From Forficula auricularia (lineage: Eukaryota; Arthropoda; Insecta; Dermaptera; Forficulidae), in assembly GCA_024734495.1 (NCBI GenBank), contig JALMQS010000225.1:10712039-10776038 (forward strand): a stretch of DNA of 64,000 nt, read 5' to 3'. Positions within the stretch are counted from its first letter, which is position 1; every line of letters starts with the position of its first letter. Positions 16,550 to 58,354 of this stretch are shown here, in pieces. The notes under the pieces were generated by a model. It saw nothing but the letters and a program-made list of their open reading frames with translations, had not been told where the DNA came from and did not search any database. A program made the translations under genes and the position numbers.

Positions 16550-16631
16550 ATATATTGAAGGAGACAATAAAAGAGTGTGTCTTCTGCTGGAATTATAAAT
16601 TTTATTTATTTATAACGATTCGTTATATATA
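16550..16631. repeat. Family C arm fragment
   Basis: TATTGAAGGAGACAATAAAA and CTTCTGCTGGAATTATAAAT match one outer arm of family C. The hammerhead-bearing inner arm is missing. The fragment is cut at a TA run where a family H element begins. Confidence 0.8.
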
Positions 16632-16646
16632 TATATATACGTATTA

Positions 16647-16922
16647 AGATTGAAGTAATTTTTGGAGAAGGAGTGATAAGTGAAATTGAGTGGATACTGA
16701 TGAGGAAGCCAAAAAAAGAAGAAGATGACTTATATTATCTTTTTATTCATAAACCGACGTTTCAGAGGCTATTCCCTCCTTCTTCAGTGTTTTGGGAGAG
16801 CGGAATGTCCCATTGGATTTCCTTCACTGACTTTTCAAAACCCTGAAGAAGGAGGTTTATGAATAAAAAGATAATATAAATTATCTTCTTCTTTTTTGGA
16901 CTGCCTCATCAATATCCACTCA
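16647..16922. mobile_element. Family H palindromic element, copy 1 (Penelope-like)
   Basis: Arms GAGTGGATACTGATGAGG (16681) and CCTCATCAATATCCACTC (to 16922) are inverted copies extending through TCTTTTTATTCATAAA. The element is flanked by ATATATACGTATTA at 16633-16646 and 16923-16936, a 14-bp target duplication. An unpaired 5' extension of about 35 bp precedes the left arm. The left arm carries a hammerhead-like core; the right arm keeps CCTGAAGAAGGAGG but lacks the rest. Confidence 0.75.
16751..16792 (-). ncRNA. Hammerhead-like motif, family H copy 1
   Basis: Minus strand: CTGAAGA at 16787-16781, one A, stem II GGAGG pairing with CCTCT, then GAAA, C and the GTC site at 16758-16756. Stem I AAACA with GGTTT pairs four of five, with a mismatch next to the core. 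Stem III is a single C-G, so cleavage would need a dimer. Confidence 0.55.
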
Positions 16923-16936
16923 ATATATACGTATTA

Positions 16937-18204
16937 TTTAGTGTTCTGTTGGAAACCCCAGTACAGATATGATCATCTTATTTAAGCAACATATACTTAG
17001 TTATTCCATGAAGATGTGAGTTAGCGTCTCAAAATCAACCCTAGCAAAAATATGATTGGCTATTATTTGACCCCTACATTATCACTCCCTCACACATAAA
17101 CTAATATTGATGGAATATGCAAATTCGATAGACTATTTTTTCGCTAAATCAGTTTGGTTTCTCTTATCTCATCGTGTTAACTTATTCTGAAAATATACTG
17201 AGTTAAGATTGAATGAATTGAATTTGAATGCCCTTTTATGTTCTGAGATCCTTGAGGATAATTATCTTCCGGTCTCTCTTCGTAATATCTAGTTATATTA
17301 GCACATAATTTTGTAAACATCATTATTTTCAAATTCAAACGTGTCATTTGCCGTGACCCAAAAATTACACTGAACAACAAATATTATCCTTTATTTTTTC
17401 ATCCTTGTTGAAAAGTAATTTACTAAGTGGATTCTAGAGCGTTTAATACGATTTTTCTTATTTTTCTTTAATCAGCATTCATAATTTTCAAATTTACGAA
17501 AAGTTCTTTGAGCTTACAAAATAAATACTCAATCAACGGATATTATTTATATTCTTCCATCTTAAAGAGCAGTTAATCACACTACTGACATATATTTAGT
17601 AATTTCAATAAATTAATTTTTACTTATTTATATTAGATTAATTAGATTAACAAATAAACCTTGAGGTTTAAATAATTTTAACTACATAGTCACTTAAGTT
17701 TTGGAAGAGTCTTTGAAATTATTTAGACTTGATTTTGTTGCATTTTTAAATCTAGTAATTGAATTAATAAGTGAAGGATATGATATCATTGGAATGTAAT
17801 ACAATGCAAGTCTTAAAAAATTAATTACTAATATTTTATTGATGACTTCGCTTACATTAGTCATTGGGAAGTATCTTGTTTGACATGTAGTTACGATAAG
17901 CGTTTGCGATTAGGTATTGTGAAAAAATTTGATTGAACTATATTTACATTTGATTTAGATGAATACGTCCAGAGCTCAAATTTGTAGTCCATATTATGGT
18001 CTTATAAAATAAAATTTCATTATCGATGGAGGATGGAGATTTCCTGCTATAGAGCCAATATATTTTATATAAAATATTTTTTTATTTTTTATTAATTTTT
18101 AACTGTATCCCTATACTATTTTTGCTGGATGTGCTTTTTCCAAGTTAACCTGGAGTCTAACTCAAACTCCAGATATTTTACGCAAGAATCATGTGAAATA
18201 GGGG
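16937..18204. other. AT-rich DNA, no gene seen
   Basis: A 67-residue minus frame at 17177-17380 has no recognised motif. Confidence 0.4.
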
Positions 18205-18210
18205 TGGCGC

Positions 18211-18303
18211 TCAAAATCCCGAAAAGTCAAAATCCCGACAGCTAAAATGCCGAAAAGTCAAAATCCCGACAGCCGAAATCCCGAAAAGTCAAAATCCCGA
18301 CAT
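18211..18303 (+). repeat. 32-bp minisatellite, three units
   Basis: Units of about 32 bp contain AAAATCCCGAAAAGTC and AAAATCCCGACAG. An inverted short array of the same unit (GACTTGTCGGGA, GGCTGTCAGGAT) lies at 39116-39172 beside a MITE. Confidence 0.75.
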
Positions 18304-18808
18304 GTTAAAATTCAGGCTAAATTTTGATATTTACAAAAACATATAAATACTATCTATTTGTATTTGACTATATTAACCTAATTAAGTCAAAAAGTAGGCA
18401 CATATCAAATCAAACCCGTGAAATAGGTCTATTATTAATATAAATCGGAGGACTTGCTTGATGTTTTAGATATAATGTTATATGACTATTGAAATGCAGC
18501 CTAACAAATCAAAATTCAGTTAATTCCTCAACAAACTCTAATATCTCACAACAATGACTCAAAAAACTCATAACTAACTTATGCCCAAACTGATCAAAAT
18601 GATGGACATTGTCCTCAACTAAACCATCTAAGAAACCTTATATCCATTAGAAATTGTTTTCAATGAATTTTAAAATATGTCCAATCAAACAAAATATGTA
18701 GTATGATTTTAAACATTCTATCAAAAGTTATTAATAAAATAAAATGAAACACCAAAGAACTTTAAAAATTGGTGGCGGTTTTTGAATAGTAGCATTTATT
18801 AAATTATA

Positions 18809-19058
18809 TTAAATTGAAAGTTTTTGTGCCGAGGGTATCAGATTTTTTATATATTGAAGGAGACAATAAAAGAGTGTGTCTTCTGTTGGAATTATAAATT
18901 TTATTTATTACGAGACTATAGTTTCGAGGGCTTTGCCCCTTCATCAGTCTATTACAATTGATTCACAGGAAAGCAAAGCAAAGCCCTCGAAATTATAGTC
19001 TCGTTATAAATAAAATTTATAATTCCAGCAGAAGACACTCTTTTATTGTCTCCTTCAA
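18809..19058. mobile_element. Family C palindromic element, copy 1 (Penelope-like)
   Basis: Starts with the family's 5' extension TTAAATTGAAAGTTTTTGTG, then the outer arm TATTGAAGGAGACAATAAAA, and ends with the inverted arm TTTTATTGTCTCCTTCAA. The left inner arm has a hammerhead core. The right inner arm keeps GCCCTCGAAATTATAGTC but has lost CTGATGA. Confidence 0.8.
18904..18957 (-). ncRNA. Hammerhead-like motif, family C copy 1
   Basis: Minus strand: CTGATGA at 18947-18941, an A, stem II GGGGC with GCCCTC and loop AAA, GAAA, then CTATAG and a GTC site. Only GA/TC and weak outer pairs form stem I, because the right strand has lost bases compared with copy 2. Confidence 0.55.
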
Positions 19059-19175
19059 TATTAAATTAAAACTTACATAGCTGAGGAAATTAAAGGCAGC
19101 CCAGGAAATTAAATAAAAAGATTACTTCTAATAAAAGAGTATTTATTGTAAAATTTTCCTTTTACAATTTTTTTA

Positions 19176-19215
19176 AACCGATTTTTCGGAGGATCTTTCC
19201 TCCTTCTTCAGGGTT
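19176..19215 (-). ncRNA. Damaged hammerhead-like motif, family H copy 2 left arm
   Basis: Minus strand: stem I AACC/GGTT, CTGAAGA, a perfect stem II GGAGGA with TCCTCC and loop AAGA, and GAAA. The next base is A instead of C and the site reads ATC instead of GTC, so cleavage is doubtful. Confidence 0.5.
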
Positions 19216-19262
19216 CAAAAGGGTCAATGAAAGGCTAAGTGCTTCCTACATTGACCCTTTTG

Positions 19263-19302
19263 AACTCTGAAGAAGGTGAGAAGATCCTCCGAAACGTCGG
19301 TT
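19263..19302 (+). ncRNA. Hammerhead-like motif, family H copy 2 right arm
   Basis: Stem I AACT with GGTT (one G-U), CTGAAGA at 19267-19273, A, a weakened stem II (GG with CC), GAAA at 19291-19294, C, and GTC at 19296-19298. Core bases are intact but stem II is poor. Confidence 0.5.
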
Positions 19303-19330
19303 TTGTAAAAGGAAAATTTTCCAATAAATA

Positions 19331-20585
19331 CATAAAAAAAAATAATAATAATATTTTTATTTATTTCCTGATCCTCAGCTATAAATTTACCAGCCCGTCT
19401 CGAAAGAAAAACGTCTAAAGTATAAAACTTATATAATTGATAAATAACTAAAATAAAACACGCGATCTTTTCCCTTATGTGTAATCTCGCGAGCTTCTGT
19501 GACAAGTGTTTAACAATAATCCACCAGACAAATCATTTTGTTTTTTTTAAATAACTAAAAAAACAAAAAACAAAAATAAATAGAGAAAAGAAAAAAGAAA
19601 CTTGTTTTTGAGCGAACTCTGATCTCGTGAATCCTAATAGTTAATAAGAACATTTTTCAGTGGAAGTAAAATTCATGGGCATTAATGTTTCATCTATTGT
19701 TTACGAAAGAATGATCACTTCTTTTAGAATATAGATATAAAATGCGTGAGAGTCTTTTCAAAGTATATAATATGACCCTCTTTTTCGTTGTTTTCTTTTT
19801 CTTTCCCATTCTCGTTGATTTATTCGAATTACTTTTATTGTTCCTCTGACCCCTTTTTGTATAAAGAAATCGTAATATTTTTTTATAAAATAAACAAAAA
19901 CATATGTTGAGTACATATTGATTCATATCAAAATATTATTTCCATTTTCCAACAAATAAAATCAGTGATCCAGTAAAAACATTTTTCGTTTCAATTTTGG
20001 GTTCTTTTAAATCTTTTTTTATAAAAATCGTTACTGCCGTATTTGATAAATTTTTTGAAAAATCTAGAAAAGTGCTCAAATATACTAGTGCTAAAGATAA
20101 GAGTAAATAAATATTATATGTAATATTCATTTACTATGAGTTAAGGATTCTTGGTGACTTGTTTCACATTAAAATTAAAATAAACTGCAACGGATCGTTG
20201 CTAAACTTTATCCAAATTCATTTAAAATATTAATCAAGCTTGAGTTGTTTACCAAAAAAGAATTTAGTCTTTTTGATTTTAAGTCGATTCTTCCACATTT
20301 TCAGTAGAGGTTGCCATTAATAGTCAAAACATCAAAAATGGAATGCAATAAGGTTATTCCTATAGTATTAGATGAGAATCGATTGTTATTTTTGATTTTA
20401 AGTCGATTCCTCCATGTCTTCAGCATAGGATTAATCCTGGCTCTCTCAGCCACCCGCTCTGAATCTGAATTAATTTGTTCTGAAGGCGAAAGTGTGAAAG
20501 ATTTGTAAATAAATTTGTGTAATGGTCTTTTGTCTTTTAAGAGGCGGCCCGCTCCTCGGAGGCCCAATAAATTAAATAAATGAAT
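19331..20585. other. No gene seen
   Basis: Short frames at 19690-20130 and 20301-20654 are unrecognised. AGATAAGAGTAAATAAATAT near 20095 is the inverse of ATATTTATTTACTCTTATCT near 20937, so a larger imperfect inverted pair brackets the next element. Confidence 0.4.
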
Positions 20586-20700
20586 ATTACATATAATTAA
20601 ATTGAAAGTTTTTGTGCCGAGAGTAGCAGAATTTTTATATATTGAAGAAGACAATAAAAGAGTGCGTCTTCTGCTGGAATTATAAATTTTATTTATTTAT

Positions 20701-20753
20701 TTATAACGAGACTATAGTTTCGAGGGCTTTGCCTCTTCATCAGTCTATTACAA
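20701..20753 (-). ncRNA. Hammerhead-like motif, family C copy 2 left arm
   Basis: Minus strand: outer stem I TTGTAA with TTATAA (six pairs, one G-U), a small internal loop, GA/TC, CTGATGA at 20743-20737, stem II GAGGC with GCCCTC (one bulge), GAAA, CTATAG and a GTC site at 20712-20710. The core is intact. Confidence 0.65.
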
Positions 20754-20814
20754 TTGATTCACAGGAATTAATTTATGAATTAATTCCTGTGATAAATTAA
20801 TTCCTGTGAATCAA

Positions 20815-20868
20815 TTGTAATAGACTGATGAAGAGGGCAAAGCCCTCGAAACTATAGTCTCGTTATAA
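20815..20868 (+). ncRNA. Hammerhead-like motif, family C copy 2 right arm
   Basis: TTGTAA (20815-20820), TA, GA, CTGATGA (20825-20831), A, stem II GAGGGC/GCCCTC with loop AAA (20833-20847), GAAA (20848-20851), CTATAG (20852-20857) giving GTC (20857-20859), TC, G, TTATAA (20863-20868). Stem I is GA/TC plus six outer pairs across an internal loop. ACTATAGT is self-complementary, so stem III could form between two molecules. Confidence 0.7.
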
Positions 20869-20938
20869 ATAAATAAATAAAATTTATAATTCCAGCAGAA
20901 GACACACTCTTTTATTGTCTCCTTCAATTACATATAAT

Positions 20939-21329
20939 ATTTATTTACTCTTATCTTTATCAAAGATGTTTCACCTTGTACCAACACCACAATCTCTACT
21001 AATTATTATACTAGTGCTCATTATTTTGTGCAAAATTTGGTCCAAATTAGACAATTTTAATTTTTTGTAAATATGTATCATGACTCCTACTATATCTACT
21101 GTCATTTGAAAACATATTTTCTGGGTTCCCAAAAACCATTTTATTTCAATTTACATCATGGAATAGAACACAATAATCAATAATGTACATATTTATTAAT
21201 ATTAAAAAAATATTGAAATAAAAGTTATTTTGAATAAAATTTTAGTTGATATTGAAAATTAAATTTTCTTAGATTTACATTTTATCTCTCATATGAATAG
21301 AGGGATAAAATATGGGTTTACACAGTGCT
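20939..21329. other. No gene seen; family E motif
   Basis: 20939-20990 (TTTATTTACTCTTATCTTTA, GATGTTTCACCTTGTACC) recurs at 58428-58505, so copy 2 of family C was inserted in this repeat. Confidence 0.5.
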
Positions 21330-22320: not shown

Positions 22321-22322
<2 letters not shown>

Positions 22323-22372: not shown

Positions 22373-22375
<3 letters not shown>

Positions 22376-25897: not shown

Positions 25898-26290
25898 AAA
25901 AAATTTTTAAGAAAAAAATAAAAACGGACTTCAAAAATTAAAATGCAACAAATAAAATACACTAAAAGGTATAAAATAATTATTATCTTATTTAGTTACA
26001 ACTAAACGACGAAATATTAACACGAAATTGCTTTTTGAAGTCGGTGCCAAACATATACCTTTTATGAATCCCACTCGACGGATCTTACTTAGTACGTTTG
26101 GAGGATAAGCTCGCTTATAGGTATAGTTTTTTTGGTACCGAATTCAAAAAGTAATTTCATGTTAATATTTCGTCGGTTAGTTGTAACTAAATAAGATAAT
26201 AATTATTTTATACCTTTTAGTGTATTTTATTTGTTGCATTTAATTTTTTGAAGTCGGTTTTTATTTTTTTCTTAAAAATTTTTATTTTTC
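25898..26290. repeat. Palindrome at the start of repeat A, copy 2
   Basis: AATACACTAAAAGGTATAAA and AGTTACAACTAAACGACGAA on the left answer TTTATACCTTTTAGTGTATT and TTCGTCGGTTAGTTGTAACT on the right. The same structure is at 46945-47290. The arms include ACTTCAAAAA and its inverse TTTTTGAAGTCGG, the sequence that also ends repeat A. Confidence 0.8.
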
Positions 26291-32470: not shown

Positions 32471-33734
32471 ATTTATTTATTATTATAATATGAACCTTTA
32501 GCTATTTTTGAGATATCTCGTAAAAATTAAACAAAATTAAAATTCCTGCGCATTTTCATTATTTCCCCATTCTATGTTTATTTGTTGTTTTAAAGAAAAA
32601 CACTATAGAAAATGATTTATCAAGCTATCCACTGATAAAGAAATAATTTTTAAATACCATTTAGAGTTCAATCACAGCAAACTTAAGAGATTCGCTAGAT
32701 ATTTCAATTTAACAATTGTATAAATTTTTATAAAATTGTAATTTAATTTATAACTACAATATTTATAATAATGCATATACTCGTATTTTAAATTTTTACC
32801 CATTTTTATTAAAATATTTGTTCAGCAACCAATTTATTTATTCACCGTCTTAATATAAATTAAATTACAATTTCCTCCGTAATTTGGGGTAGGTAAACCC
32901 ATGTTGAAAATAGTAAATATATAAAAAATCCCAATTAAAATAATATACCTTTTAGGCCATTTAGCCATTTGTCAAGTGTTGATAATGCAGCGAACATGTT
33001 TTAATCGCATTTGTTTATCGAAATGGTTAAGTAAATAGAATCCGGTTAATTCTCGATCATGATATGCATTGACTTAAATGATTCTCAAACCCTGCATTTT
33101 CTATTATCACTTAGAAAAAAGCTTCTGAAAAAATTTAATTGATTTCCTATTTACACCATGGATTTAATTCAAAAAATCCATATCTTTTGCCCCACAAAGT
33201 TTCTACTTAAGTTTCGCAATAATTTTAAGTGTAATTTTTTTATTAAGAGGAAATATTATTATTTATTGGACTTGAATTAGTTTAGATAGAAACGAAATTT
33301 TTTGCTGTTGTAATCTTTTTTTTTTACTTAAAATTTGAATTTTTAGTGAAATCACACAATTATTTATAATTATTTATTGAACACGAACAAATAATTCAAT
33401 ACAACTACTTAAACTGTTTTTTACATTATCATTTTTAGCGTGGGGTTTGTAATTTTTACAGTCCCATTGTTAGAAACAGAAAACCCTATTGTGTCATTAC
33501 TAGAAGTCATAGAGATAAATCTATTTCCAAATGCGTTGTATCTACAGATAATTTGATGACGATGGGGTTTCGTATGAATCAGATGTTTCTAGGCAATGAG
33601 GCTTTATAATGACTTTAAATTTCATTAGAATGTTAGTATCTATAAAAAGGAAAAGGGCGGAAAAGGTTCTACGATGGGCTAAGAATTCGAGTGAGATAAA
33701 TAAGGTAGAATCTGTTGAAGCTTTTATTTTTGTG
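32471..33734. other. No gene seen; family D fragment
   Basis: 33342-33415 (AAAATTTGAATTTTTAGTGA, TTATTGAACACGAACAAATA) is an isolated arm of palindrome family D. Nothing else recognised. Confidence 0.45.
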
Positions 33735-33992
33735 ATTAATTTGATTAAAATTTGAATTTTTATTTAAATCACATAAATAATTATACTTATTTATTGAACA
33801 CGAACAAATAATACAATATAACTACGGCGTTTCGATCGACTTATTCTGCGATCGTAAACCTATAATCGGAGTGGGTGCTCATACTTGAGAACGATCGCAG
33901 AATAGGTTGATCGAAACGTCGTATTGTATTATTTGTTCGTGTTCAATAAATTATTATAATAAATGATGTGTGATTTAAACAAAAATTCAAAA
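33735..33992. repeat. Palindrome family D, complete copy
   Basis: Arms TTATTGAACACGAACAAATA and TATTTGTTCGTGTTCAATAA, with inner inverted parts TCGATCGACTTATTCTGCGA and TCGCAGAATAGGTTGATCGA. GATCGAAACGTCG in the right arm equals the 3' half of the hammerhead core in other families, but no CTGAnGA is present. Confidence 0.8.
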
Positions 33993-34152
33993 TTTAAGGT
34001 AGAATCTATTACACAAATCTACAAAAAAAAAATTTTCCTTGTCCTAAAGTTTATTTCATGATTTTTCTATTCATTGTGCTCCAAAATAAAGGAAAAGTAC
34101 CTATATTCCGTATAAAGTTTTATTTTGTAGTAGTTATATTAGTAATAATAAT

Positions 34153-34535: not shown

Positions 34536-36006
34536 CGACAATATCTCCAAAACAAGAGCTAATCAGTAATTTTTAGGATGATTTTTGAATTCAGCAGGTG
34601 GAAATACATAAGAATCAGATATTTTTGAGCCCGAGGCATTTTCATTGTTGGGCAGTGTTAGTGGTTTTCAATTGGGCTACAGACGCCAGTATTAAATTTT
34701 CAGAATTCATAAACATTCTTTGTGTTATTGGAGTGCATTTTACTGTTGAACAAATAAAACAATTCTAATCAAAATTTAGAAATAAAACTTATCACTTTGC
34801 TTCCTGTTTAGAAATTATTTAAAAATTATTGGATGTGATAAACTGTTAGCCCACTGAACAACTTTTAATTGTAAATTCTTCTAATATAATTTACCCCATC
34901 ACCTTATAGACTAAATTAACACAAAGATAGAGTGTCATCAAATTCCTCTTATAAGAATAAATTTCTCTAATGTTGGAATGTGATAAACTCACCTGTAATG
35001 AAATTCCGGCTCGAACCGCTTCAGAGTGGATGGATTGTTGATCTTTTTGCATTATCAAGGCTGCCTCTCTGGAGTTGTTTTTCTTTCTACATATACAGGC
35101 ATATAATGCATTTGAAATATCGCAAATTCGTGGGGGGGGCTCAATGTATTCCTTCCTTCAAATCCTTCAAATTGATTAAATAATATCTTTAATTATATTT
35201 CGAATCGAACATCAGCTTACCATGTAAACTAATGACATTTTTAAAATTTTTGATAAGGCGTAAATGATTCTTTCTTGTTTATGTAAATGAATGGATTAAA
35301 TTAAATTGCGCAATTTACCTAAATTATTATAAATAATCAAATTCTCAAACATCATTTTTCTAGATAGTTATAAAGTCAAATAATCATATTTAATATGCAA
35401 AAAAAAATTAGATTTCTTTATTACTATACACAAAGAACTTTTCCATTTTGAATACTAATTACTTTCAGAAGATATAGAAGAATGAAATCTCCATAAAAAT
35501 TAAGGGTAAAAAATTAAACTCATCAGTCTTTTTATAATAATTATCTATTTATTTCTAAACCTTTAAAAATATAAAGGATTTTATAGACTAGTATTTATAA
35601 TGATATTAAAAAAATTTCCTAAGACCTAAAAAAAAAGGTAGTTAATATTGACTTTTGCATTGAAGAGGTAAATAGAGTGGGCTTTTTCCGGACTTAGGAG
35701 AACTAATGTCTAATTAATCTAATTAAAAGGACGAATGGACATGAACGTTATTAAACTATTTTTGAAAATCCTGATGAATAAAATTAACGTTTACATCGTG
35801 GGTAGAAAATAGAGAGGACTTTAAAAATGTCTGGAGTTAGGTGGACAAGTCTAATTAATTTTTTGTTGGCTATTTAATTTTGAATAGGACTGAAGCAAAT
35901 TTGTTGATTTTAAGTATGAGATGTTAGTATAATATTAATCATAATTGATAAATGTAATGGGTGGGGGTATAACAAATAATATCCTATAATTTGAGAGTAT
36001 TTATTT
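34536..36006. other. No gene seen
   Basis: The 67-residue frame at 34980-35183 is unrecognised. AT-rich throughout. Confidence 0.4.
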
Positions 36007-36072
36007 TTAATTAATAAAGTAAAGGGAGTGTAGTTTCACAGTGAATGAAATAAAACTCAAAGAGGTTTATAC

Positions 36073-36115
36073 AACCTCAATATATTTCGGATTATTAGTC
36101 CATCATCAGGAGTTT
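36073..36115 (-). ncRNA. Hammerhead-like motif, family J left arm
   Basis: Minus strand: stem I AAACTC with GAGGTT (one G-U plus matches), CTGATGA, T, stem II GGA with TCC around a 7-nt loop, GAAA, TATA, and an ATT site. Core bases are intact. Confidence 0.6.
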
Positions 36116-36183
36116 ACAGATTAAAAACGATTAATTAATCTGTAAACTCCTGATGATGGGTTAAAAACCATTAATTAATCTGT

Positions 36184-36226
36184 AAACTCCTGATGATGGA
36201 CTAATAATCCGAAATATATTGAGTTT
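36184..36226 (+). ncRNA. Hammerhead-like motif, family J right arm
   Basis: Stem I AAACTC (36184-36189) pairs perfectly with GAGTTT (36221-36226). CTGATGA is at 36190-36196, stem II GGA/TCC at 36198-36200 and 36208-36210, GAAA at 36211-36214, then TATA and the ATT site ending at 36220. TATA is self-complementary, allowing an intermolecular stem III. Confidence 0.7.
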
Positions 36227-36470
36227 GTATAAGCCTCTTTGAGTTTTATTTCATTCACTGTGAAACTACACTCCCTTTACTTTATTAATTAATATCATGT
36301 TTCAGCTAAAACCTACACCACTTTCCCTAAGTAAAAAAGTATTTATTTTTTCTAAGCACATTAATAATACACACACTTGTCTGTGTTTACGCGCAGGCCC
36401 TCTTATTTAATGTCAAATTTAAAGGGCTGATAAAATAATAATGTTTAATTTCCATTTTCATTAAATCTTA

Positions 36471-39115: not shown

Positions 39116-39172
39116 TTTTGACTTGTCGGGACTTTGGCTGTCAGGATTTTGACTTGTCGGGAGTTTGGGGTG
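39116..39172. repeat. Minisatellite, two units
   Basis: GACTTGTCGGGACTTTGGCT then GTCAGGATTTTGACTTGTCG, inverse of the array at 18211-18303. Confidence 0.65.
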
Positions 39173-43045: not shown

Positions 43046-43631
43046 TATTGAAGATATTTGAAAACTCAATTAACACCTTTAATTAGGAAATCATGGAAGT
43101 AAATCCTTCGTTGCTATTGGTACTTAGAATTTTAACGTCATTAAGCAAAAGAAATACAAATATCCCCCTCCGAATATTACACAATTTTATAATGTCGTTA
43201 AATACAGAAAAACTATTAATGAAAAAAAATGAAAAATAAATAAATGTGAATTTTTATGTTATCACCCAGATTTCAATCATAAAATGAATTCAAATTTTCT
43301 TTAATACTGTCAAGTAATTCATTGGCATTAATACATGTTGCTGCACACCCTCTTGCTATTTACAGTTTAACGCGCTCCCGTAAAACGCGAATTTGTATAA
43401 CACGACGAGAAAAATTGCAAGTACAGTAGGTATTCATATAGCGCGATAAACAGTCCCGTATAATACGTAAGAATAGTTTCTGATTTTTGAATCTGGCGAA
43501 GCTTATAAAAAATAGTAATATATACACACCTAAAGATATAAGAGAAAAATAATTTTATTCAACTTTTATTAAAAATAAAAATACATTTGCACGAAATTTT
43601 CTCTGGAGAGACGGACTAGTAGAAATTTTAA
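43046..43631. other. No gene; possible pogo-type terminus
   Basis: TACAGTAGGTATTCATATAG then CGCGATAAAC (43425-43455) resembles pogo/Tigger ends. CATATAACGAGATTTTCC near 44392 may be an opposite end beyond the next palindrome, but the match is weak. Confidence 0.3.
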
Positions 43632-43743
43632 CTTAAAGTAATGGAAGGCAGCCCAGGGGTAGTGAAGAAAGAAAGAATTATCACATATCCAAATAAGGTG
43701 TAATTTATTGAATTTTCATTCCCTTCTTTCCTCCTTTCCTTTC

Positions 43744-43786
43744 AAACCGACTTTTCGGAGGTTTCTTCCTTCCTTCTTCAGGGTTT
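43744..43786 (-). ncRNA. Damaged hammerhead-like motif, family H copy 3 left arm
   Basis: Minus strand: stem I AAACC/GGTTT, CTGAAGA, stem II GGAAGG with CCTCC (imperfect), GAAA, then A instead of C before GTC. One stem III base is changed relative to the right arm. Confidence 0.5.
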
Positions 43787-44042
43787 CAAAGGGCCAATGA
43801 AGGAAACAAACAAAATGCTTCCCTCCTCTCTCCATAGCAGTGTTTAAAATTTCCTTCTTCCTTACTATTATAGAAGCATTAAAATAAAATAAACAATTTT
43901 TTTCATTTTCTTAAACTATAATTAAGAAAAGGAAAAAAATGTTTTTCTATTTTAATGCTTCTGGTAAGGAAGAAGAAAATTGTAAACACTGCTGTGGAGA
44001 GAGGAGGAAAGCATTTTGTTTGTTTCCTTCATTGACCCTTTG

Positions 44043-44085
44043 AAACCCTGAAGAAGGAGGGAAGAATCTTCCGAAACGTCGGTTT
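44043..44085 (+). ncRNA. Hammerhead-like motif, family H copy 3 right arm
   Basis: Stem I AAACC (44043-44047) pairs with GGTTT (44081-44085). CTGAAGA is at 44048-44054, then A, stem II GGAGGG with TCTTCC (six pairs, two G-U, loop AAGAA), GAAA at 44073-44076, C, and GTC at 44078-44080. ACGT across the site is self-complementary, so a dimer can complete stem III. Confidence 0.7.
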
Positions 44086-44201
44086 GAAAGGAAAGGAGGA
44101 AAGAAAGAAGGGAATGAAAATTCAATAAATTACACGTTATTTGGATATGTGATAATTTTTTCTTTCTTCACTACCCCTGGGCTGCCTTCCATTACTTTAA
44201 A

Positions 44202-45589
44202 ATAAAAATACATGTATGCACCTCAGTATTTAACATTTATTCACTATCGGAAAAAGCAATAATATTATACATGTACATGTATATGGTTCCAAACCTGAAC
44301 GAAAAATTTTAATTAAGACATCACCGAAGACAAGTAAGGCTGGGCGTCCTTGAAGTTACATAAATTGGTCTGATAATGTATGTCCCATATAACGAGATTT
44401 TCCTAAAATTTTCAGGGGTTTATCAGTTTTTAGCCGGCCCTGATAAATGACTAAATGGACCTGTCCCGTTGAATTTATATTTTCCGTAGGGAATCACGCG
44501 TGCCCTATGCGTATATATAGGAGGCTAAATTTTCCAATTAGTTATCGCTTTGTTTTTCCAATTAAAATCAGAATACACTTTTAATTGACGAATAACATAG
44601 GAGCATAACGGCCAAATTGAAACAAATCCACCAGGAAACCTGCCCGGTCTTCCGCCAGTCTCCAGGGTTTCCCAAAACAAAAAGGACTAAGAAACACTAA
44701 TTTGAATAGTCATGTCATAAATTTGTAATTTTGAGTTAAGCAGGACTCTTTATGGCATTTTGAACTAAATTCATTACAGATAAACTTTTCCTATGTATAA
44801 AAATGAGATAAATAAATAGATAATGATTAATAATAAAACATGATTCATTTCTATATCTTAATTAACCTATTTATTTCCAATATCACTTGCGCACATTAAT
44901 TCGCCAATAAATATTCTAAATTAATAATCAAAGCTAAATATATGTTGAAAGTAATTTGAATATATGTAGTACATCGATTTTCATTTTAAATATTTTAAAA
45001 CATTTTATAAAACCATTACTCTGCATCTCTAGAGTCCGCATCGCCAACGACACATACTAGGGCCCTGGAGAGAACAACCTAATTTTAATTATTTTGTATG
45101 TGCAAGACTGAAAACATTTAATTGAAATAATAATAGGTATATCTAAAACACAAATATTATTAAATTTTCAGAAAAATAATTTAATATTTTTTCTTATTTA
45201 TATAACTCAGAGTTTAATCCAAAAATTTTAATTTTTTTTCTTTTTTTCGTAAAGCTACTAACTATATGCTCTTCAATTATTTGTTTTTTTGTCCCTTGAA
45301 TTTTGATAAATTTAAAATATCTTATGATATTTATCTAAATCTATGTTTTATAAAAGAATGTAGTATAATTAAGTGTAACTTTCGGGAATCTAGAGCACCC
45401 TGTCGCAAAATCTACACCTCCATCATGAAAAAAATTAATGTTTTTAAAATATTTATTTATTAAAATAATTAACCCTAAGTTTTGATTATCTTTATTTGAA
45501 AATAAGATGGATTTTTTCAAAAATACAACTCACGGTATAAAATAAATTTTTATATTAAGAAAGAATTTAAATTTATGGACCAAAATCTA
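44202..45589. other. No gene seen
   Basis: AT-rich DNA. The 65-residue frame at 45266-45463 has no recognised motif. Confidence 0.4.
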
Positions 45590-46944: not shown

Positions 46945-47290
46945 AATTTTTAAGGAAAAATTATTATCTTATTTAGTTACAACTAACTAAACGACGAAAT
47001 ATTAACATGAAATTACTTTTTGAAGTCGGTGCCAAACATATATCTTTTATGAATCGCACTCGACGGATCTTACTTAGTACGTTTGGCGGGTACGCTCGCT
47101 TATAGTAGCTAGGTATGTTTGTTTAGCACCGACTTCAAAAAGTAGTTTTATGTTAATATTTCGTCGTTTAACTAAATTGTAACTAAGTGTAAATTTTAAC
47201 TAAGATGTAACTAAATAAGATAATAATTATTTTATACCTTTTAGTGTATTTTATTTGTTGCATTTAATTTTTTGAAGTCGGTTTTATTTT
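46945..47290. repeat. Palindrome at the start of repeat A, copy 3
   Basis: AACTAACTAAACGACGAAAT and the right arm ATTTCGTCGTTTAACTAAAT are inverted copies. TTTTTGAAGTCGGTGCCAAA answers GCACCGACTTCAAAAAGTAG. Same structure as 25898-26290. Confidence 0.75.
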
Positions 47291-47635: not shown

Positions 47636-47732
47636 AACTACTACTATACCTAAGTACAACCCTATTAATGTCGATACAATGGCTGTCTGTCTGTCAAAGA
47701 ATTGTAGCTCGTAAACAAAATAAGATATTAAC

Positions 47733-47916
47733 GTTGAATCATTCGCATCCATAGTAAATTTGTAACAGGAATAGCAGGGAATTGGACAAAATTAAAAACA
47801 CAGAGTTTTTATTAAATGTGCCAGACGTTTCGTCAATTTATTTTGACTTCTTCAGTGGCACATTTTATCACTCTATCAATTTTTAATTTTGTCCAATTCC
47901 CTGCTATTCCTGTAAC
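47733..47916. mobile_element. Family I palindromic element (Penelope-like)
   Basis: Flanked by TAAGATATTAAC at 47721-47732 and 47917-47928, a perfect 12-bp target duplication. A 5' extension of about 28 bp is followed by arms GTAACAGGAATAGCAGGGAA and TTCCCTGCTATTCCTGTAAC. The loop contains the best hammerhead-like motif in the window, once, on the minus strand. Confidence 0.88.
47818..47861 (-). ncRNA. Hammerhead-like motif, family I, fully paired
   Basis: Minus strand: stem I GTGCCA (47861-47856) pairs perfectly with TGGCAC (47823-47818). CTGAAGA is at 47855-47849, then A, stem II GTCAA/TTGAC with a 6-nt loop, GAAA at 47831-47828, C, and GTC at 47826-47824. All conserved core bases are present. 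Stem III is one C-G pair with no loop; ACGT is self-complementary, so a double hammerhead between two copies is the likely active form. Confidence 0.75.
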
Positions 47917-48104
47917 TAAGATATTAACTTAAATTTTACAATTTAAATGTACCTATGTATTTATTTTACCAGAAATAAAAAATCCTATATTAAAATTTTA
48001 ATTGAACAGTTTTTTGAGTTTGGTCAAATTTATACATATAGGGTCAAAAATAAAAAATAACTATGTTTGATCATTGGTATGAAATATCTCTATAAAAAAA
48101 AGGA

Positions 48105-49562
48105 ATTTTTTTATTTTCTTCTTCGAAGTCGCATTCTTCTTTGCAGAAGTTACGTGACCCTATTGACTCCACACGCCCACAGATTTTATTTTGCGGATCA
48201 CTGCTCTCCATTTGGAACGATTGCGGGCCACCGTCGAAGCACCCTGGAAGCTCGCGCCGGTCCCCTCCCTTATTTGATCGGTCCATCTGGCCGGAGATCT
48301 GCCCCTTCTCCGTGAACCCTCAACTCTTCCCTGGATCACGATCCGCTCCAACCCATCACTGGCACGAGTAAGATGGCCAAAGTATCTCATAACCCTTGTG
48401 AGCACAATACTTGACAGACGCTGGTCAGCCCGCACTTGCTTAAGAATCGAGACGTTTGTTCGCCGCGCTGTCCAGGGAATACGTAACATTCGCCTCCAGC
48501 ACCATAGCTCGAAGGCATCAATTTTTCTGCGGTTGACCTTCTTTACTGTCCATGTTTCTGACGCATACAACATGACAGGAAAGACCAGTGATTTAACTAA
48601 TAGTTTTTTAGTATTGATAGTTAGGCTGTTATCCTGCCAATTTTTTTAGTTTCGTCATCACAGATCTCCCCATCTGAACACGCCTGTTGATTTCATCGTC
48701 ACATCCGCCCTTGTTGGTTATCATGGACCCAAGATATATGAAGTGATCGACCACATCGTAACCATCGATTCTTCTAATGTTGGACATGTTGTTATTAGCT
48801 CGGTCGATAATCATGATCTTAGTTTTGGTATGATTTATCTCCAGCCCATACTCTCTGCTTACTTTTTCAAGTCTCCCAAGGAGCTGGACTAATTCTTCTT
48901 CCGAGTTTGCAAGCAGGGCTGTATCATCTGCATATCTCAAGTTAGTCAACTTCACACCCCCCACAGAGACGCCACCATTCCATCCCTCCAAGACCATCCG
49001 CATGACATATTCTCCATATATGTTGAAGAGAGTAGGCGACAAAATACAACCCTGACGCACCCCTCTGCCTATGCTAAACTCATCTGACAAACTGTTTTCA
49101 ATCCGGACCACACCAGAGTTGTTGTCGTATAGACTCTTTATTAATAAAATCAGATGTTGTGGGACTCCCATTTTTCCTAAAATCTCCCAAAGTTTTGGCC
49201 ATTGAAGGCTGTCAAATGCTTTGCAGTAATCTACAAAGCAGAAATAAACTGGAATATAGAACTCCCTTGCTTTTTCAATTATGAGTCTTATGTTCAATAT
49301 TTGTTCGCGAGTTCCTTTACCTTTAACGAAACCCGTCTGGTTAGGTGGGATTTGCCAATCAACGTAGTACTTAAGCCTTTCATGGATGATAGACAACATT
49401 ACTTTACTTGCATGAGGTATCAGAGCAATAAGCCTGTAATTATCACAAATGTTTTGGGGTCCTTTCTTGTGTATTGGGACAAAAACCGAACTCACCCAGT
49501 CATCCGGCCATTTTCCAGTTTCCCACACCCTGCTGCAAATATCACTAATTCTTGATATTCCT
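48105..49562 (-). mobile_element. RTE/BovB-like LINE, 5'-truncated
   Basis: About 1.46 kb of the 3' part of an RTE-type LINE on the minus strand: reverse transcriptase core, C-terminal domain, and a very short A-rich 3' UTR (48159-48105), as usual for RTE elements. The 5' half with the endonuclease is absent. Confidence 0.85.
48160..49562 (-). pseudogene. RTE/BovB-like reverse transcriptase, one frameshift
   Basis: This would copy the element's RNA at a nicked target. Numbering from codon 49528, motif A FVDYCKAFDSLQW is at about 98-110 with its aspartate, motif B GVRQGCILSP at about 156-165, and the catalytic YADD box at 199-202. The C-terminal part (48629-48160) has LYASETWTVKK, LWCWRRMLRIPWTARR, RYFGHL and WRAVIRKI, the characteristic tail of RTE/BovB polymerases. 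A frame change at an A run near 48640 separates the two parts; without it the frame would be open for about 460 codons. The start is lost: at 49562 the coding sequence enters unrelated DNA, and the first codon of the open frame is GTG inside the protein. The endonuclease domain is missing, so it cannot be autonomous. Confidence 0.88.
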
Positions 49563-50618
49563 ATTTTTTTTATTTAATTCACTTTAAAACGAAGGCTTAG
49601 ATGGGCAGACATATGTAGTGTTCATTTTTACACGATTGTTGTACCTAACAGGATTTCCGAACCAGTGAACTTAATAAATTTACGAAAAAATTATACAAAT
49701 ACCTCCTCCATACGGTGTATGGACAACCAAATAAATACGGTTTACTATTTTGTTATCTCTACTACTACTATTTTGAGAGCTATAATCGATTTTCTTATCT
49801 TAACAGAAAAATATAATGACTTAACTTTAGCGTCTTCTTATCTACTAGCTATGCAACCCAGAATGAGAGATTCCCATTTGTACTTATGCGTTTTTTTATT
49901 TATCAAAAACTTCTTTTTTTATAATTTTTATGAAGTTATACCCCCAAAAATTGAAACTCTGTAGCCTGGGATGAACACCTGCACCGTAAGAAGAAGAAAT
50001 TTCAAATATTGGGTCGAAGTTGAAGGTTCCTGTGGATGCTGCTCTTGGAAGCCTGAATTTCTTTTTGTCATTTTGTCTTTTTGTCTTTTAGAATTTTCTT
50101 AAAAACGATTTTAACGATTTCGTTCGATTTCTCTAAGCTTATCGAGAAGTATTAGTTCTTTAATATCCATAAATTTCAATAATATTGAAATTGAGGAATG
50201 GAAGTCGATCGTGTTGCAAACACATGTAAAACCCCAATATCTCAGCAATGCTAGATTTTGGCTTATATTGGTTCAACTGAAGGACTTTAACATATTCGGT
50301 TTCAAGGGTGGAAGGATAATTTTAAAGAAGTGCAAAATGTGTGCTTCACGTCTTTGTTTGTTATTAATTGGAAGGGCCAGGATTCGTATGCAAATGCATA
50401 TTATTTTTGACTATTTTAAAGTCATGCAAAACATTTTTATACATGTTTTGAGCGTCTCCGATGACAAAATCAAAACTTAATAGTGCATATTTCCGGTATT
50501 TCGTAGTTCTTCTGCATATAATACGTTATTGTGCATATTGTGTGGTATATTTAGAGAATTAAATAGCATAAACGCCCAAATTTCCATATTTTGCAAAAAA
50601 AATTAAGATTCTGTTTTT
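49563..50618. other. No gene seen
   Basis: Frames at 49665-49964 and 50211-50480 have no recognised domain. AT-rich DNA. Confidence 0.4.
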
Positions 50619-51342: not shown

Positions 51343-52341
51343 ACCTTTGCAGAAGACATAGAGGAATCGACTTTAAACCAAAAATAGCGATTGATTCTCA
51401 TCAAATACTTGAGGAATAACCATTCTATATTGGATTTTTGACGTTTCGGTTTTTATTGGTGACCATTGCTGAAGACATAGAGGAATCGACTTTAAACCAA
51501 AAATAGCGATTGATTCTCATCTAGTACTTGAGGAATAACCATTCTATATTGGATTTTTGACGTTTCGGTTTTTATTGGTGACCATTTCTGAAGACATAGA
51601 GGAATCGACTTTAAACCAAAAATAGCGATTGATTCTCATCAAATACTTGAGGAATAACCATTCTATATTGGATTTTTGACGTTTCGGTTTTTATTGGTGA
51701 CCATTGCTGAAGACATAGAGGAATCGACTTTAAACCAAAAATAGCGATTGATTCTCATCTAGTACTTGAGGAATAACCATTCTATATTGGATTTTTGACG
51801 TTTCGGTTTTTATTGGTGACCATTTCTGAAGACATAGAGGAATCGACTTTAAACCAAAAATAGCGATTGATTCTCATCAAATACTTGAGGAATAACCATT
51901 CTATATTGGATTTTTGACGTTTCGGTTTTTATTGGTGACCATTGCTGAAGACATAGAGGTATCGACTTTAAACCAAAAATAGCGATTGATTCTCATCTAG
52001 TACTTGAGGAATAACCATTCTATATTGGATTTTTGACGTTTCGGTTTTTATTGGTAACCATTGCTGAAGACATGGAGGAATCGACTTAAAATCAAAAATA
52101 GCCATCGATTCTCATCTAATACTTGAGGAATAACAATTCTACATTAGGTTTTTGACGTTTCGATTATTATTGGTAACCATTGCTGAAGACATGGAGGAAT
52201 CGACTTAAAATCAAAAATAATGATCGATTCTTATCTAATACTAGAGGAATAACCTTATTGCATTCCATTTTTGATGTTTTGACTATTAATGGCAACCTCT
52301 ACTGAAAACGTGGAAGAATAGACTTAAAATCAAAAAGACTA
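51343..52341. repeat. 119-bp satellite, about 8.4 units, dimeric higher order
   Basis: GAAGACATAGAGGAATCGAC recurs at 51352, 51471, 51590, 51709, 51828, 51947, 52066 (variant), 52185 (variant) and 52304 (degenerate), always 119 bp apart. Units alternate between ATTGCTGAAG/CATCTAGTAC and ATTTCTGAAG/CATCAAATAC from 51352 to 51947, giving a 238-bp period; units decay toward the right end. Each unit contains GACGTTTCGG, the inverse of the CCGAAACGTC found in the hammerhead families. Confidence 0.95.
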
Positions 52342-52534
52342 AATTCTTTTATGGCAAACAACTCAAGCTTGAGTTGTTTACCAAAAAAATAAAGATTCAA
52401 ATGACAGGACTAATTATAGAATTTACTTAAATAAAATTTCTGGTCTGATCTTTTTCGGACCATAAAAAGAATTAATTACAATTGATTTTATTCATAAATA
52501 TGTGCACATCTGTGTATATCTTAATATTAATCAT
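52342..52534. other. AT-rich DNA
   Basis: Contains CTTGAGTTGTTTACCAAAAA (52372), shared with 20239; nothing else is recognised. Confidence 0.4.
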
Positions 52535-52536
52535 AA

Positions 52537-52595
52537 TCATTGAGACGCCTGATGAAGTCAAAATAAAGTTGGTGAAACGTCGCGTAAATCAATGA
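52537..52595 (+). ncRNA. Hammerhead-like motif, solitary, family I type
   Basis: Outer stem I TCATTGA (52537-52543) with TCAATGA (52589-52595), a small internal loop, inner stem I ACGC (52545-52548) with GCGT (52582-52585). CTGATGA is at 52549-52555, A, stem II GTCAA with TTGGT (five pairs, two G-U), GAAA at 52574-52577, C, and GTC at 52579-52581. Core intact. No palindromic partner arm was found. Confidence 0.7.
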
Positions 52596-54925: not shown

Positions 54926-54927
54926 TG

Positions 54928-55190: not shown

Positions 55191-55253
55191 ATGGAATGGA
55201 TTAGGTATATTTAAAATTTGAATTTTTAGTGGAATCACACATAATTAATTATA

Positions 55254-55708
55254 TTAAATTGAAAGTTTTTTGCCGAGAGTAGCAGAATTTTTATATATTG
55301 AAGGAGACAATAAAAGAGTGTGTCTTCTGCTGGAATTATAAATTTTATTTATTTATAACGAGACTATAGTTTCGAGGGCTTTGCCCTCTTCATCAGTCTA
55401 TTACAATGGATTCACAGGAATTAATTTATGAATGAAAGGTTAAAATCTTTCATGTGGTTAGGTTAAGAAATTTTTCAGGGTGGGCAAGTTGAGAATTGAA
55501 ATTTATACTTGTTTTATTATTTTGACTGTAGGTGGCGTTCATGAAATTTTTATTTTAGCGGCTATTTTTAAAATAAAGCTTTCGGGAATTTCTATTTTCC
55601 GATTTAAGAATTTTTTTTGGAGAATTATTGTATGATTTTAAAATGTCTAACGATTCGAAAATACTAATTTTTAAGGGATCTAATTCTGATCTTTATTGTC
55701 TCCTTCAA
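55254..55708. mobile_element. Family C palindromic element, copy 4, longest interior
   Basis: Flanked by TAATTAATTATA at 55242-55253 and 55709-55720 (12 bp, perfect). 5' extension TTAAATTGAAAG, full left arm, then a longer interior (55440-55690) including GGTGGCGTTCATGAAAT that the other copies lack, and a right arm reduced to CTTTATTGTCTCCTTCAA. This may keep more of the parent element. Confidence 0.85.
55353..55406 (-). ncRNA. Hammerhead-like motif, family C copy 4
   Basis: Minus strand: outer stem TTGTAA/TTATAA, GA/TC, CTGATGA, perfect stem II GAGGGC/GCCCTC with loop AAA, GAAA, CTATAG, GTC. All core positions conserved. Confidence 0.65.
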
Positions 55709-55854
55709 TAATTAATTATAATTATTTAGTGAATAGTAACAAATAATACAATACAACTATGATAGTTCGATCGGCTTATTCTGCTATCTTTCTCAATTAT
55801 GAGCACCCACTCCGATTTTGGATTATATTTGCCATAATTATATGTCAGAAGTAT

Positions 55855-55920
55855 TTTCACCTCCGTAGGAATCGAACCCGAATGCCAAAATTAGCAATCC
55901 TAGCCAATTGGCTACATTTT
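55855..55920 (-). repeat. tRNA-like sequence (SINE or tRNA remnant)
   Basis: Minus strand: GTAGCCAATTGGCTAGG resembles an A box and D arm, and CGGGTTCGATTCCTACGG is a B box with T loop. The T stem is imperfect and the acceptor ends do not pair, so this is not a functional tRNA. Confidence 0.45.
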
Positions 55921-57090
55921 TAAGTGAACCCTTTTGTTATATGTATGGCACTAAATATTTTGTTTTATTTTTTAAAACTCAGTTTGCATTTATTTAATTT
56001 TTTGTCTGAAAACATTTTATACTAAAAAGTTAAAACTGAGTATAAAAGAGTTGCTTATTAATATAAACTTGTCTGCCAAATTTCTGTTCATTAGCTATAA
56101 TTGATCAACAACTTCACATTATTCAATAAGTAGCCAATACATTCATATTATTTATTTGCCAAAAGTTACGTTCGTTTAATTCTATCATCATCAAAAAGCG
56201 CAATAGTTGATTGTATTAACGCGCAATCAAAATTAAATTGATGATTTAAAAAAATGAACAATTTTTAATCTGTTTTAAAAGCTAATTGTTATTCACTATT
56301 AAATTATTTTTTAAATCGAATTGCCGTGTCTCGCTTATGATTTTTAAAAATAAAAAAAGTGAAAGTAGCTTCCGGATTTAAATTTTTCCAAATGACCGAA
56401 AAGTATAAAAAAAGAGAAAAGAATAAAGAAAAATGACATATATAGAAACTGTAAAGAAATTCTTAACTCGTTCATCATACGAATTACGGAATAATTTATC
56501 TTTAATAATTTTAATTGAAAAGTTAATATTCAGATTTTCTCATTTTTAAATTTATACTTGCTGCGAAGTCTATCTTCGGTGGGCCTTTTACTTTCCAGAA
56601 AGCCTCACGCACAGTAGTTACATATTTTTTAATTAAATAGATTCGTTAAAATAAAAAATAAATTTAAATATACATTATATAGGAAGTGTAAGCTCGGATA
56701 TATATTATTTCTGCTGAACGATAGGATTATCGCTTGTTTTAAAAGTAAATTATTTATTAATGAAACTAGAGAAAGTTATCCAGTTAACAAAAAATAGACA
56801 TTTTTAAAATTCGTACTGATAATAAAATTAAAAATTTAGATTGATAGATTGGACATTTGTTAGTTGAAGAGAAACTCTTTATGGTAGCTCATTATGAAAA
56901 TAAAGGGTTTAGTTAAATTATTAAGGTAATTGTTTCGCGACAATACTAGCAAAAAGTTAATGCTAAAGTATATAGAACAGACTATAAGAATTCATAATTC
57001 ATCAGCCCAAAACTTACTACTAGCCATTCCCGTGCTCGTTTGACAAATCTGGCAACACTGTCCGAGCTTTTATATATTTGATCATAGAAA
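55921..57090. other. AT-rich DNA, no gene seen
   Basis: 56569 carries the short motif shared with 38441. TCTGGCAACACTGTCCGAGC at 57047 resembles motifs often seen near insect transcription starts. Confidence 0.4.
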
Positions 57091-57252
57091 TGTCAGATAA
57101 AGTACATTATAAAGGAAGATTTATAAAACCAAAAGTTCTTAATAAGCGATTGAAAGCTGTTGCTACAATGGCTGAAGCGAAAAAACTACTAGTTAACCCA
57201 CTTTTTAGGTTAAAAAATAAATGCTTTGTTGCCAACTTGTTTTTAGTGTAAA
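57091..57252 (+). CDS. Possible short coding exon, 53 codons
   Basis: ATG at 57091 in context GAAATGT opens a frame starting MSDKVHYKGRFIKPKVLNK, continuing RLKAVATMAEAKKLL, and ending after NKCFVANLFLV. The first 35 residues are basic and helix-like, with ordinary codon variety, unlike the T- or A-rich chance frames elsewhere; the last part is hydrophobic and may already be intron. A CTGGCAACACTG motif lies about 45 bp upstream. It could be the first coding exon of a host gene or the start of a transposon protein. I do not recognise the protein. Confidence 0.3.
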
Positions 57253-57897
57253 TTTTTCATTATTTATTCATTATTATCTCAGAAACTGTTTTGTAACTAT
57301 GAATTAAAATTTCCTTAAAAATATATTAGTTATTGTTTAATGTTGGTTTAGTTTTTTATAACAATGGTAAGAAAAGTTTCTTAATTATAATTGTAATGTA
57401 TGTAAACTTTCCGATATCCCGTATAGTGCAATGTATAAGAGTCTGAAAAACTCTATCTTTGGAATTTAATATCTCCGGAACTATATTGTTCATAAATTTC
57501 GTTTTGCCAACAATCGATGCAGAAGTATTTAAATAATAATCTGTCTAAATTTCAAAAAAATCCTAAGAAAACCCATATGATGAAACCAACTATCTTAAGT
57601 TGCACCATTGTGCCATATTTCAGCTTATTAGCTTAAATCGTCCACATATTATTATTTAATATAATTATATCTTATGTTTTCTTATTATTTTCAGTAAACA
57701 TAAAATGGGTCCCTTATGTAGGTATACAATTATACATTAAGCATAAAATACAAAATACATATTTACATAGTATCCGATAAATAACAAAAATAAATTGAAA
57801 TAACGCTTAATACAATTACGGGCAGGGACTACGAGTACTCCGTTCAGTTGTTCTTCGTAGATCTATCCACTGCGCGACCGAACTCAAGAGCGTGCAT
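57253..57897. other. No gene seen
   Basis: AT-rich DNA without recognised features. Confidence 0.4.
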
Positions 57898-58326
57898 CTT
57901 CAAGAAAGTACAGAATTTTAACATTTTTTTAAAAAAATCTTTGGGTTGGGTGCAGATGTTTGTAGTCGTGGTAGATTAAATTTTTTCTTCAATTGGGTTA
58001 TTTTCTTCTGTTTTTTTAAGTAAAGTGTTTGTCTCAAAATTAATATTTCTTCGCGGATGTCTTGATTAATGTATCAAATTGAATATAATGTAATTCTTTA
58101 GACAAGTTGAAATGTATAGGTTTTAAATGTAAATTTAAAAAATAGCGTGTTCCATACCATTTTTTAATTTCTTCTATGAGTCAGGTAGATTTAGCCAACG
58201 CAACTGCTTTTTGTGCTGATCTGGATGTGGACTTGCATTTTATGTTGATAAATTGAGGACTAAGTTGTAGTTTTTTGCAGGTCGTGAGAAACCTGTTAAA
58301 ATTCTGTACTTTCCTGAAGATGGGTT
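57898..58326. repeat. Inverted pair, Penelope-like, decayed
   Basis: CTTCAAGAAAGTACAGAATT (57898) answers AAATTCTGTACTTTCCTGAA-type sequence at 58300-58317; the rest of the arms is diverged. The right arm carries a hammerhead-like core. Confidence 0.55.
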
Positions 58327-58354
58327 TACAGCCCAAATTATATATATTGAAAAA
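58310..58354 (+). ncRNA. Damaged hammerhead-like motif, family J type
   Basis: Stem I TTTC with GAAA, CTGAAGA at 58314-58320, T, stem II GGG/CCC around TTTAC, then AAA where GAAA is expected (one G lost), TATATATATT with an ATT site. Confidence 0.4.

Follow-up and report, generated by a model that had tools for sequence, protein, structure and literature searches.

Hammerhead-bearing palindromes in the earwig Forficula auricularia are probably two-armed insertions of Penelope-like elements

A 64,000-nucleotide stretch of the Forficula auricularia genome (contig JALMQS010000225.1, positions 10,712,039 to 10,776,038; hereafter the window) contains several families of palindromes, in which a first-pass annotation had recognized minimal hammerhead ribozyme cores and from which it had postulated at least five lineages derived from Penelope-like elements. 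This locus raises the questions of whether the cores are genuine hammerheads and what kind of event could place them in inverted arms. The palindromes are best explained, and in our judgment probably so, as insertions with two arms and truncated 5' ends, contributed by several Penelope-like lineages that bear an endonuclease, and they would arise via two-ended priming.

A loose core pattern, CTGANGA-N(5-30)-GAAA, matched the window 24 times, compared to a mean of 4.29 and a maximum of 9 matches in 100 shuffled sequences. Fourteen of these matches represent distinct cores, belonging to families C (five), H (five), J (two) and I (one) and to one solitary copy; the remaining ten comprise two nested duplicates (19196 and 43762), a damaged core at 58314 and seven matches without further support. 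With a stricter pattern that included stem II, an NUH site and at least 3 bp of stem I, eight matches were found, one of which (19306-19381) looks spurious, compared to a mean of 0.25 and a maximum of two in 60 Markov controls. When at least 4 bp of stem I were required, six matches remained in the window; among 719 cores with permuted letters, 714 gave none and the best gave two. CUGANGA and GAAA elements flanking a paired stem II are thus present, and stem I closes in families H, I and J and in the solitary copy, with the pairings that the first-pass annotation had proposed. The families had also been regarded as unrelated, which does not apply to I and the solitary core, for which the string-matching ratio is 0.89, or to the H loci, which constitute one lineage.

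Across the 1.06-Gb genome, the pattern CTGANGAAGN{8,24}GAAACGTC has 26,063 exact matches (13,106 forward, 12,957 reverse), while the core pattern read backwards has 0 and 1. Covariation was evaluated in 24 copies picked for diversity out of 64. Over stems I and II, 78.6% of the cells are paired, compared to 55.8% in shuffles, and the covariation score is 0.568, compared to 0.212 in shuffles and at most 0.237 in slid controls. Stem II, whose variants include GGAGG/CCTCC, GCCAG/CTGGC and GTCGA/TCGAC, is paired in 95.5% of the cells, and stem I in 70.8% over ten positions; for example, the I stem GTGCCA/TGGCAC is replaced by the likewise paired GGGCCA/TGGCCC in a relative (L043; L numbers denote loci fetched from the genome). 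In each core, moreover, one extra base follows CUGANGA. Our search pattern fixed this spacer to A in 57 cores, which were excluded from the count; in 31 cores from fetched loci that were not selected for it, the spacer is U in 19, A in 12 and never C or G, although many of these copies are related and hence not independent. The spacer is present in every core from the fetched loci with a stem II of at least 4 bp, and among window cores with such a stem II it is A in nine and T in J.

Several observations weigh against the view that the cores are functional hammerheads. The type I covariance model that had been suggested as a test, Rfam Hammerhead_1 (RF00163), did not reach its gathering score in the window and returned nothing at E ≤ 10 over the whole window. 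I scored 18.3 bits (cut-off 34, E 0.027) when its 101 bases were rescanned alone, and the core of an 858-amino-acid (aa) Penelope-like element introduced below was missed even in a 111-base scan. The alignment explains why I falls below the threshold: a base is inserted after CUGAAGA, and the loop of stem III has a length of zero. A genome search with RF00163 gave no match, and its controls gave none either. Nor are the cores intact throughout: by eye, stem I of family C consists of two pairs followed by a bulge, the first stem I pair is broken in the H3 core at 16760 (-), and stem I is likewise weak in the hammerhead of the 858-aa element. In addition, two of five covariation measures did not stand out clearly from the shuffles (160 and 27 of 500). 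Finally, ribozyme mutants of an Anolis Penelope element were unaltered in insertion in vitro, according to the part of that study consulted here (PMC11167929). The low Rfam scores, the weak stem I of family C and the Anolis mutants would be expected if the cores were due to chance or decayed, without catalytic meaning and conserved merely as part of a template. We consider this improbable, given that both stems covary, that permuted cores hardly match and that the spacer is restricted to A or U in the 31 unselected cores. In agreement with the first-pass annotation, we take the 14 cores as real, structure-constrained hammerheads and thus as predicted ribozymes; they would belong to a type whose stem III is vestigial or very short and in which an additional A or U is inserted between A9 and G10.1. 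Separate pattern scans of viral contigs yielded two and zero loci, both of which we read as chance, and a scan of a collection of genome contigs yielded five bacterial loci.

The ends of the palindromes are informative with respect to their origin. TSDs (target-site duplications), arm order, cores and one-sided tails can all be read directly from the sequence. The palindromes are asymmetric, in that one arm abuts the TSD and the other is extended before the second TSD copy. The antisense arm lies on the left and the sense arm on the right, with a core present in arms that are long enough; among 100 listed places, 18 neighbors within 700 bp are arranged as (-) then (+), compared to two as (+) then (-). 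We examined 71 copies, comprising 27 window palindromes (mechanical groups mixed with boundaries set by us, and including C31 and others that lack the signature), 29 genome palindromes (picked by us, well paired, duplicates removed) and 15 long copies. In all 36 copies with a clear TSD, one arm only is extended, by 25-52 nt according to the aligner's boundaries. Eight window palindromes (H1, H3, J, 33745, I, C20, K and 3322) have an exact TSD of at least 12 bp and are extended by 32-52 nt on a single side, while mismatched flanks reached a score of 12 in 6 of 1388 trials; H2 and C18 fit the same anatomy with weaker TSDs. Similarly, 17 of the 29 genome ribozyme palindromes reached a TSD score of at least 12 (17 of 1616 in the null), with a one-sided extension of 25-49 nt, which is on the left in 8 and on the right in 9. 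TSDs measure 12-19 bp in most copies and 8 bp in L088. As the extensions are conserved within families and richer in C than in G (250 vs 108) while the TSDs differ, the extensions derive from a template and are not filler. By comparison with described elements, we identify the one-sided extension as the Penelope tail.

Inverted repeats bordered by TSDs would also be produced by DNA transposons or miniature inverted-repeat transposable elements (MITEs) with terminal inverted repeats, in which case the hammerhead-like core would be fortuitous. However, the TSD abuts one arm only, the arms differ in length and reverse transcriptase (RT)/GIY-YIG frames are linked to the elements (see below). Where the TSD reaches 12 bp, it is never flush with both inverted repeats, every such copy showing the one-sided extension, and the 36 copies with a TSD already contradict a MITE origin, to which we assign next to no probability. 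A version involving TTAA-targeted MITEs had been considered and was rejected once long TSDs and one-sided tails appeared. In other palindromes, including those at 25899, 34153, 45552, 39179, 46973, 12620 and 2690, no tail-plus-TSD signature was found; 25899-26283 and 46973-47186 are related long palindromes and represent another class of inverted-repeat element. A 550-bp palindrome at 9974-10523, also without TSD signature, has CCGAGCA and CTAGGGA in its arms at the expected CTGANGA site, GAAAC and a possible stem I (TTGC/GCAA), and by eye it perhaps holds two decayed hammerhead cores.

A connection to Penelope elements emerged from a six-frame GIY-YIG search of the genome, which gave 150 scored matches. 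One 858-aa frame, related to family C, combines RT and GIY-YIG domains (RVT_1 1.5e-16, GIY-YIG 8.6e-6). In L078 this element forms tandem units at 2909-bp spacing with a core between the frames. Its hammerhead, CTGATGA-T-GAAGAC..GTCTTC-GAAACTATAGTC, is followed about 140 nt on by point B, at which copies end, then by a 43-nt tail up to point A and by the open reading frame (ORF). Family C of the window shows the identical order, shares ACTATAGTC, has a similar tail, and its ribozyme is 81% identical over 63 bases. The family C ribozyme sequence also occurs at L073:1987+, 211 nt past the end of a 133-aa GIY-YIG-homologous frame. In 14 of 20 loci (L058-L077), the strand that carries the GIY-YIG match also carries a core farther downstream; these include a second GIY-YIG lineage (L060, L061, L068, L074, L075), which has its own core, CTGAAGAAGCTGC..GTGGCGAAACGTT, 700-800 nt downstream. 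A tandem array of the 858-aa family at G000:C618:2249034-2269577 has seven listed units in steps of about 2.9 kb. In the window itself, no frame combining RT and GIY-YIG was seen among the ten frames (of 86 with at least 70 aa) covered by a Pfam scan.

These linkages support the Penelope origin proposed for the window palindromes. For family C they involve frames directly; for H, I and J, the connection comes only from the ribozyme and from the way in which the insertions are built, not from a linked frame. TSD and one-sided tail characterize H, I, J and K as well as two palindromes not named before (33745-33997 and 3322-3442). Counting C, H, I together with the solitary copy, J, and K together with 3322, the postulated minimum of five lineages is reasonable, with the proviso just made for H, I and J. 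The copies are short, ORF-less and ribozyme-bearing, and one small tandem array of cores exists (L053, G000:C4:1021500-1024500), in which four to five H-type cores recur about every 110-125 bp, giving it a retrozyme-like look; both features would suit retrozymes, small non-autonomous type I hammerhead elements that spread as circular RNA. However, L053 is the sole tandem core array among the fetched loci, which are mostly inverted or single copies rather than 150-450-bp tandem monomers, and neither the tail nor the link to GIY-YIG frames is accounted for. A retrozyme origin is therefore highly improbable.

We mapped the 15 long copies (L079-L093) to one unit of the 858-aa element. L079-L085 had been picked for long frames and L086-L093 mainly for close (-) and (+) matches, so the share of two-ended insertions cannot be derived from them. 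Eleven have a TSD, of 12-13 bp in ten and of 8 bp in L088, and all eleven end at A on one arm and at B on the other. The arms often differ in length: in L083, a B arm of 2.6 kb faces an A arm of about 90 nt, the respective values being about 3.2 and 0.2 kb in L084 and 0.8 and 2.1 kb in L089. The tailless arm exceeds the tailed arm in L083, L084 and L088, and by eye also in K. One arm is thus not simply a copy of the other. At the arm junction, L081, L082, L084, L087, L089 and L091 show overlaps of 2-10 nt, and L083, L088 and L092 show gaps of 1-8 nt. Replication of a palindromic master copy was discarded as an explanation, since family C and the long copies stop at different 5' points.

Based on these results, we suggest that a ribonucleoprotein (RNP) of the element would cut both strands of AT-rich DNA and that its RNA would be reverse-transcribed from both target 3' ends, with one strand starting at the outer site A, including the tail, and the other at the inner site B, without it. 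Each cDNA would stop independently, and the two 3' ends would be joined head to head, often at microhomology. Two-ended target-primed reverse transcription of this kind would explain why the arms lie head to head and differ in length, why a TSD is present and why the tail is confined to one side; what we infer is that both strands are primed, that the RNP acts as a dimer and that the ends are joined at microhomology. In support, extension of both strands and two start sites have been described in vitro for the Anolis element, the tail corresponding to the stretch between the two reverse-transcription start sites in an AC-rich stem loop (PMC11167929).

Not all observations favor two-ended priming. 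The start sites of the Anolis element did not differ between strands in vitro (same source). A TSD of the kind described above was not seen in 12 of the 29 genome palindromes, 19 of the 27 window palindromes and 4 of the 15 long copies; C31 lacks one and C55 is one-armed. L080, L082, L085 and L093 have neither a clear TSD nor a clean fit: L080 looks A/A, L085 has a single arm, and the ends of L082 and L093 are not at A and B. In addition, the arms are nearly equal in L086, L087 and L091, and pairing extends through to the center in 10 of 25 palindromes, both as expected if one arm were copied from the other. The latter two observations are what self-priming would give, in which a strand would serve as its own template after folding back, a route put forward for the Penelope elements of Adineta, there with an antisense template (PMC3846280). 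Self-priming would, however, have to stop at B every time to leave the tail on one arm alone, and the tailless arm could then not exceed the tailed arm from which it was copied, as it does in L083, L084, L088 and K; we regard it as unlikely to be the origin of the palindromes. Nevertheless, equal arms and center-paired palindromes make it likely that a second joining route operates in part, either cDNA annealing at self-complementary sites or self-priming.

The ribozyme would probably enter the palindromes as a passenger. It may trim tandem transcripts, which we offer only as a guess because the Anolis mutants left insertion unaltered; the Anolis hammerhead cleaved only when protein was added (PMC11167929, in part). 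When a palindrome is transcribed, the ribozyme would lie opposite its own antisense copy, which makes its activity in such a transcript doubtful. The stronger proposition, namely that integration is obligatorily two-ended and asymmetric, with a dimeric RNP, sites A and B, separate RNA templates and head-to-head cDNA joining, has in our estimate an even chance of being correct. If it is, the "optional" tail, the inverted pseudo-long terminal repeats (pLTRs) and the palindromes would be one signature of a single mechanism.

Table 1. Putative Penelope insertions and hammerhead cores in the window. Cores listed for C18, C20, C31, C55, H1-H3, I, J and the solitary copy are those found with the loose pattern.
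Feature	Span (strand)	TSD	Tail	Cores (strand)	Remarks
Insertion with short arms	3318..3490 (+)	3318-3329/3479-3490	~3443-3478		Palindrome ~3330-3442; arms do not reach ribozyme; tail resembles those of J and K
H3	16633..16936	16633-16646/16923-16936	16647-16684	16760-16787 (-)	Palindrome 16685-16922
C18	18806..19067	Weak, 10 bp		18922-18947 (-)	Two-armed family C copy
H2	19067..19435	19067-19079/19423-19435 (13 bp, one mismatch)	~19385-19422	19184-19211 (-), 19267-19294 (+)	
K	20081..21018 (+)	20081-20092/21007-21018	20960-21006		Arms unequal; C20 nested inside right arm
C20	20586..20938	20586-20597/20927-20938	~20598-20639	20718-20743 (-), 20825-20851 (+)	
C31	31570..31886	None found		31684-31710 (-)	Long tailed arm (~266 nt), short tailless arm (77 nt)
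33745-33997 palindrome	33701..34007	33701-33713/33995-34007	~33714-33744		Decayed hammerhead-like stretch ~33880-33926 (+), by eye
J	35996..36350	35996-36008/36338-36350	~36292-36337	36085-36109 (-), 36190-36214 (+)	Spacer T
H1	43572..44213	43572-43586/44199-44213	~43587-43625	43753-43781 (-), 44048-44076 (+)	
I	47721..47928	47721-47732/47917-47928	~47733-47765	47828-47855 (-)	One core; stem I 10 bp; second arm ends short of ribozyme
Solitary hammerhead	52545..52585 (+)			From 52549 (+)	Core close to I; stem I ACGC/GCGT; no element boundaries found
C55	55250..55500 (-)			55370-55396 (-)	One-armed family C copy with tail
K-family copy	58314..58500 (+)			Damaged, GAAA lost	With tail

The window also contains other repeats and transposon remnants. 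A 119-bp tandem repeat (7.7 copies) occurs at 51343-52372, and an inverted stretch 96% identical to it (20234-20425) lies between the arms of K, perhaps captured during insertion. A Mariner-type transposase fragment (36472-36939 (+), Transposase_1 1.1e-18) is located just right of palindrome J. A LINE-type (long interspersed nuclear element) RT at 48160-49573 (-) extends over two frames (RVT_1 7.8e-39) and does not look Penelope-like. Short tandem repeats of the TCAAAATCCCGAAAAG type are found at 18211-18311 and 39115-39167.

The cores and insertions described here can be compared to known systems. The extra A between A9 and G10.1 is shared with the hammerhead of chrysanthemum chlorotic mottle viroid, in which U is better than A at this position and C and G are harmful (PMC3705267); unlike the present cores, the viroid ribozyme is not associated with a retroelement. 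The earwig cores thus provide a large natural set of hammerhead variants, in which the extra base is only A or U in our sample, matching the prediction from viroid biochemistry. The minimal type I hammerheads of Penelope-like elements have the same CUGANGA, stem II, GAAA and NUH site, a missing or tiny stem III and a high copy number (PMC6155905, PMC7229834); the extra A or U after A9 is present in all cores with a good stem II tested here. Animal retrozymes are likewise short repeats with type I hammerheads, but they consist of tandem monomers and form circular RNA (PMC7229834), whereas inverted arms, a tail and a TSD are found here.

Ribozymes, inverted pLTRs, TSDs and a tail are known for Penelope elements from published work. 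Adineta Pen2a/Pen3a (PMC3846280) and Anolis PAc (PMC11167929) resemble the earwig elements in having an RT plus GIY-YIG frame, tandem units, a hammerhead near the ORF start, an adjacent head-to-head inverted pLTR, a TSD, a tail of about 30-40 bp on one inverted pLTR, as stated for Adineta (PMC3846280), and AT-rich targets. A limited literature search, covering parts of the papers, did not turn up a description of two-armed insertions as invariably tailed on exactly one arm or as having independently truncated arms, from which we claim no absence from print. This one-tail regularity and the unequal arms bear on the question of how Penelope elements integrate, on which a self-priming model dates from 2013 (PMC3846280) and the in vitro observation of two start sites, with both strands extended, from 2024 (PMC11167929). 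With tens of thousands of ribozyme copies and many insertions whose ends are readable, the earwig genome offers enough material to decide between such models by counting. What sets it apart from Adineta and Anolis is the very large number of copies, most of them palindromes of about 150-600 bp that lack an ORF, with a one-sided tail in all 36 copies with a TSD and independent truncation of the arms on young copies.

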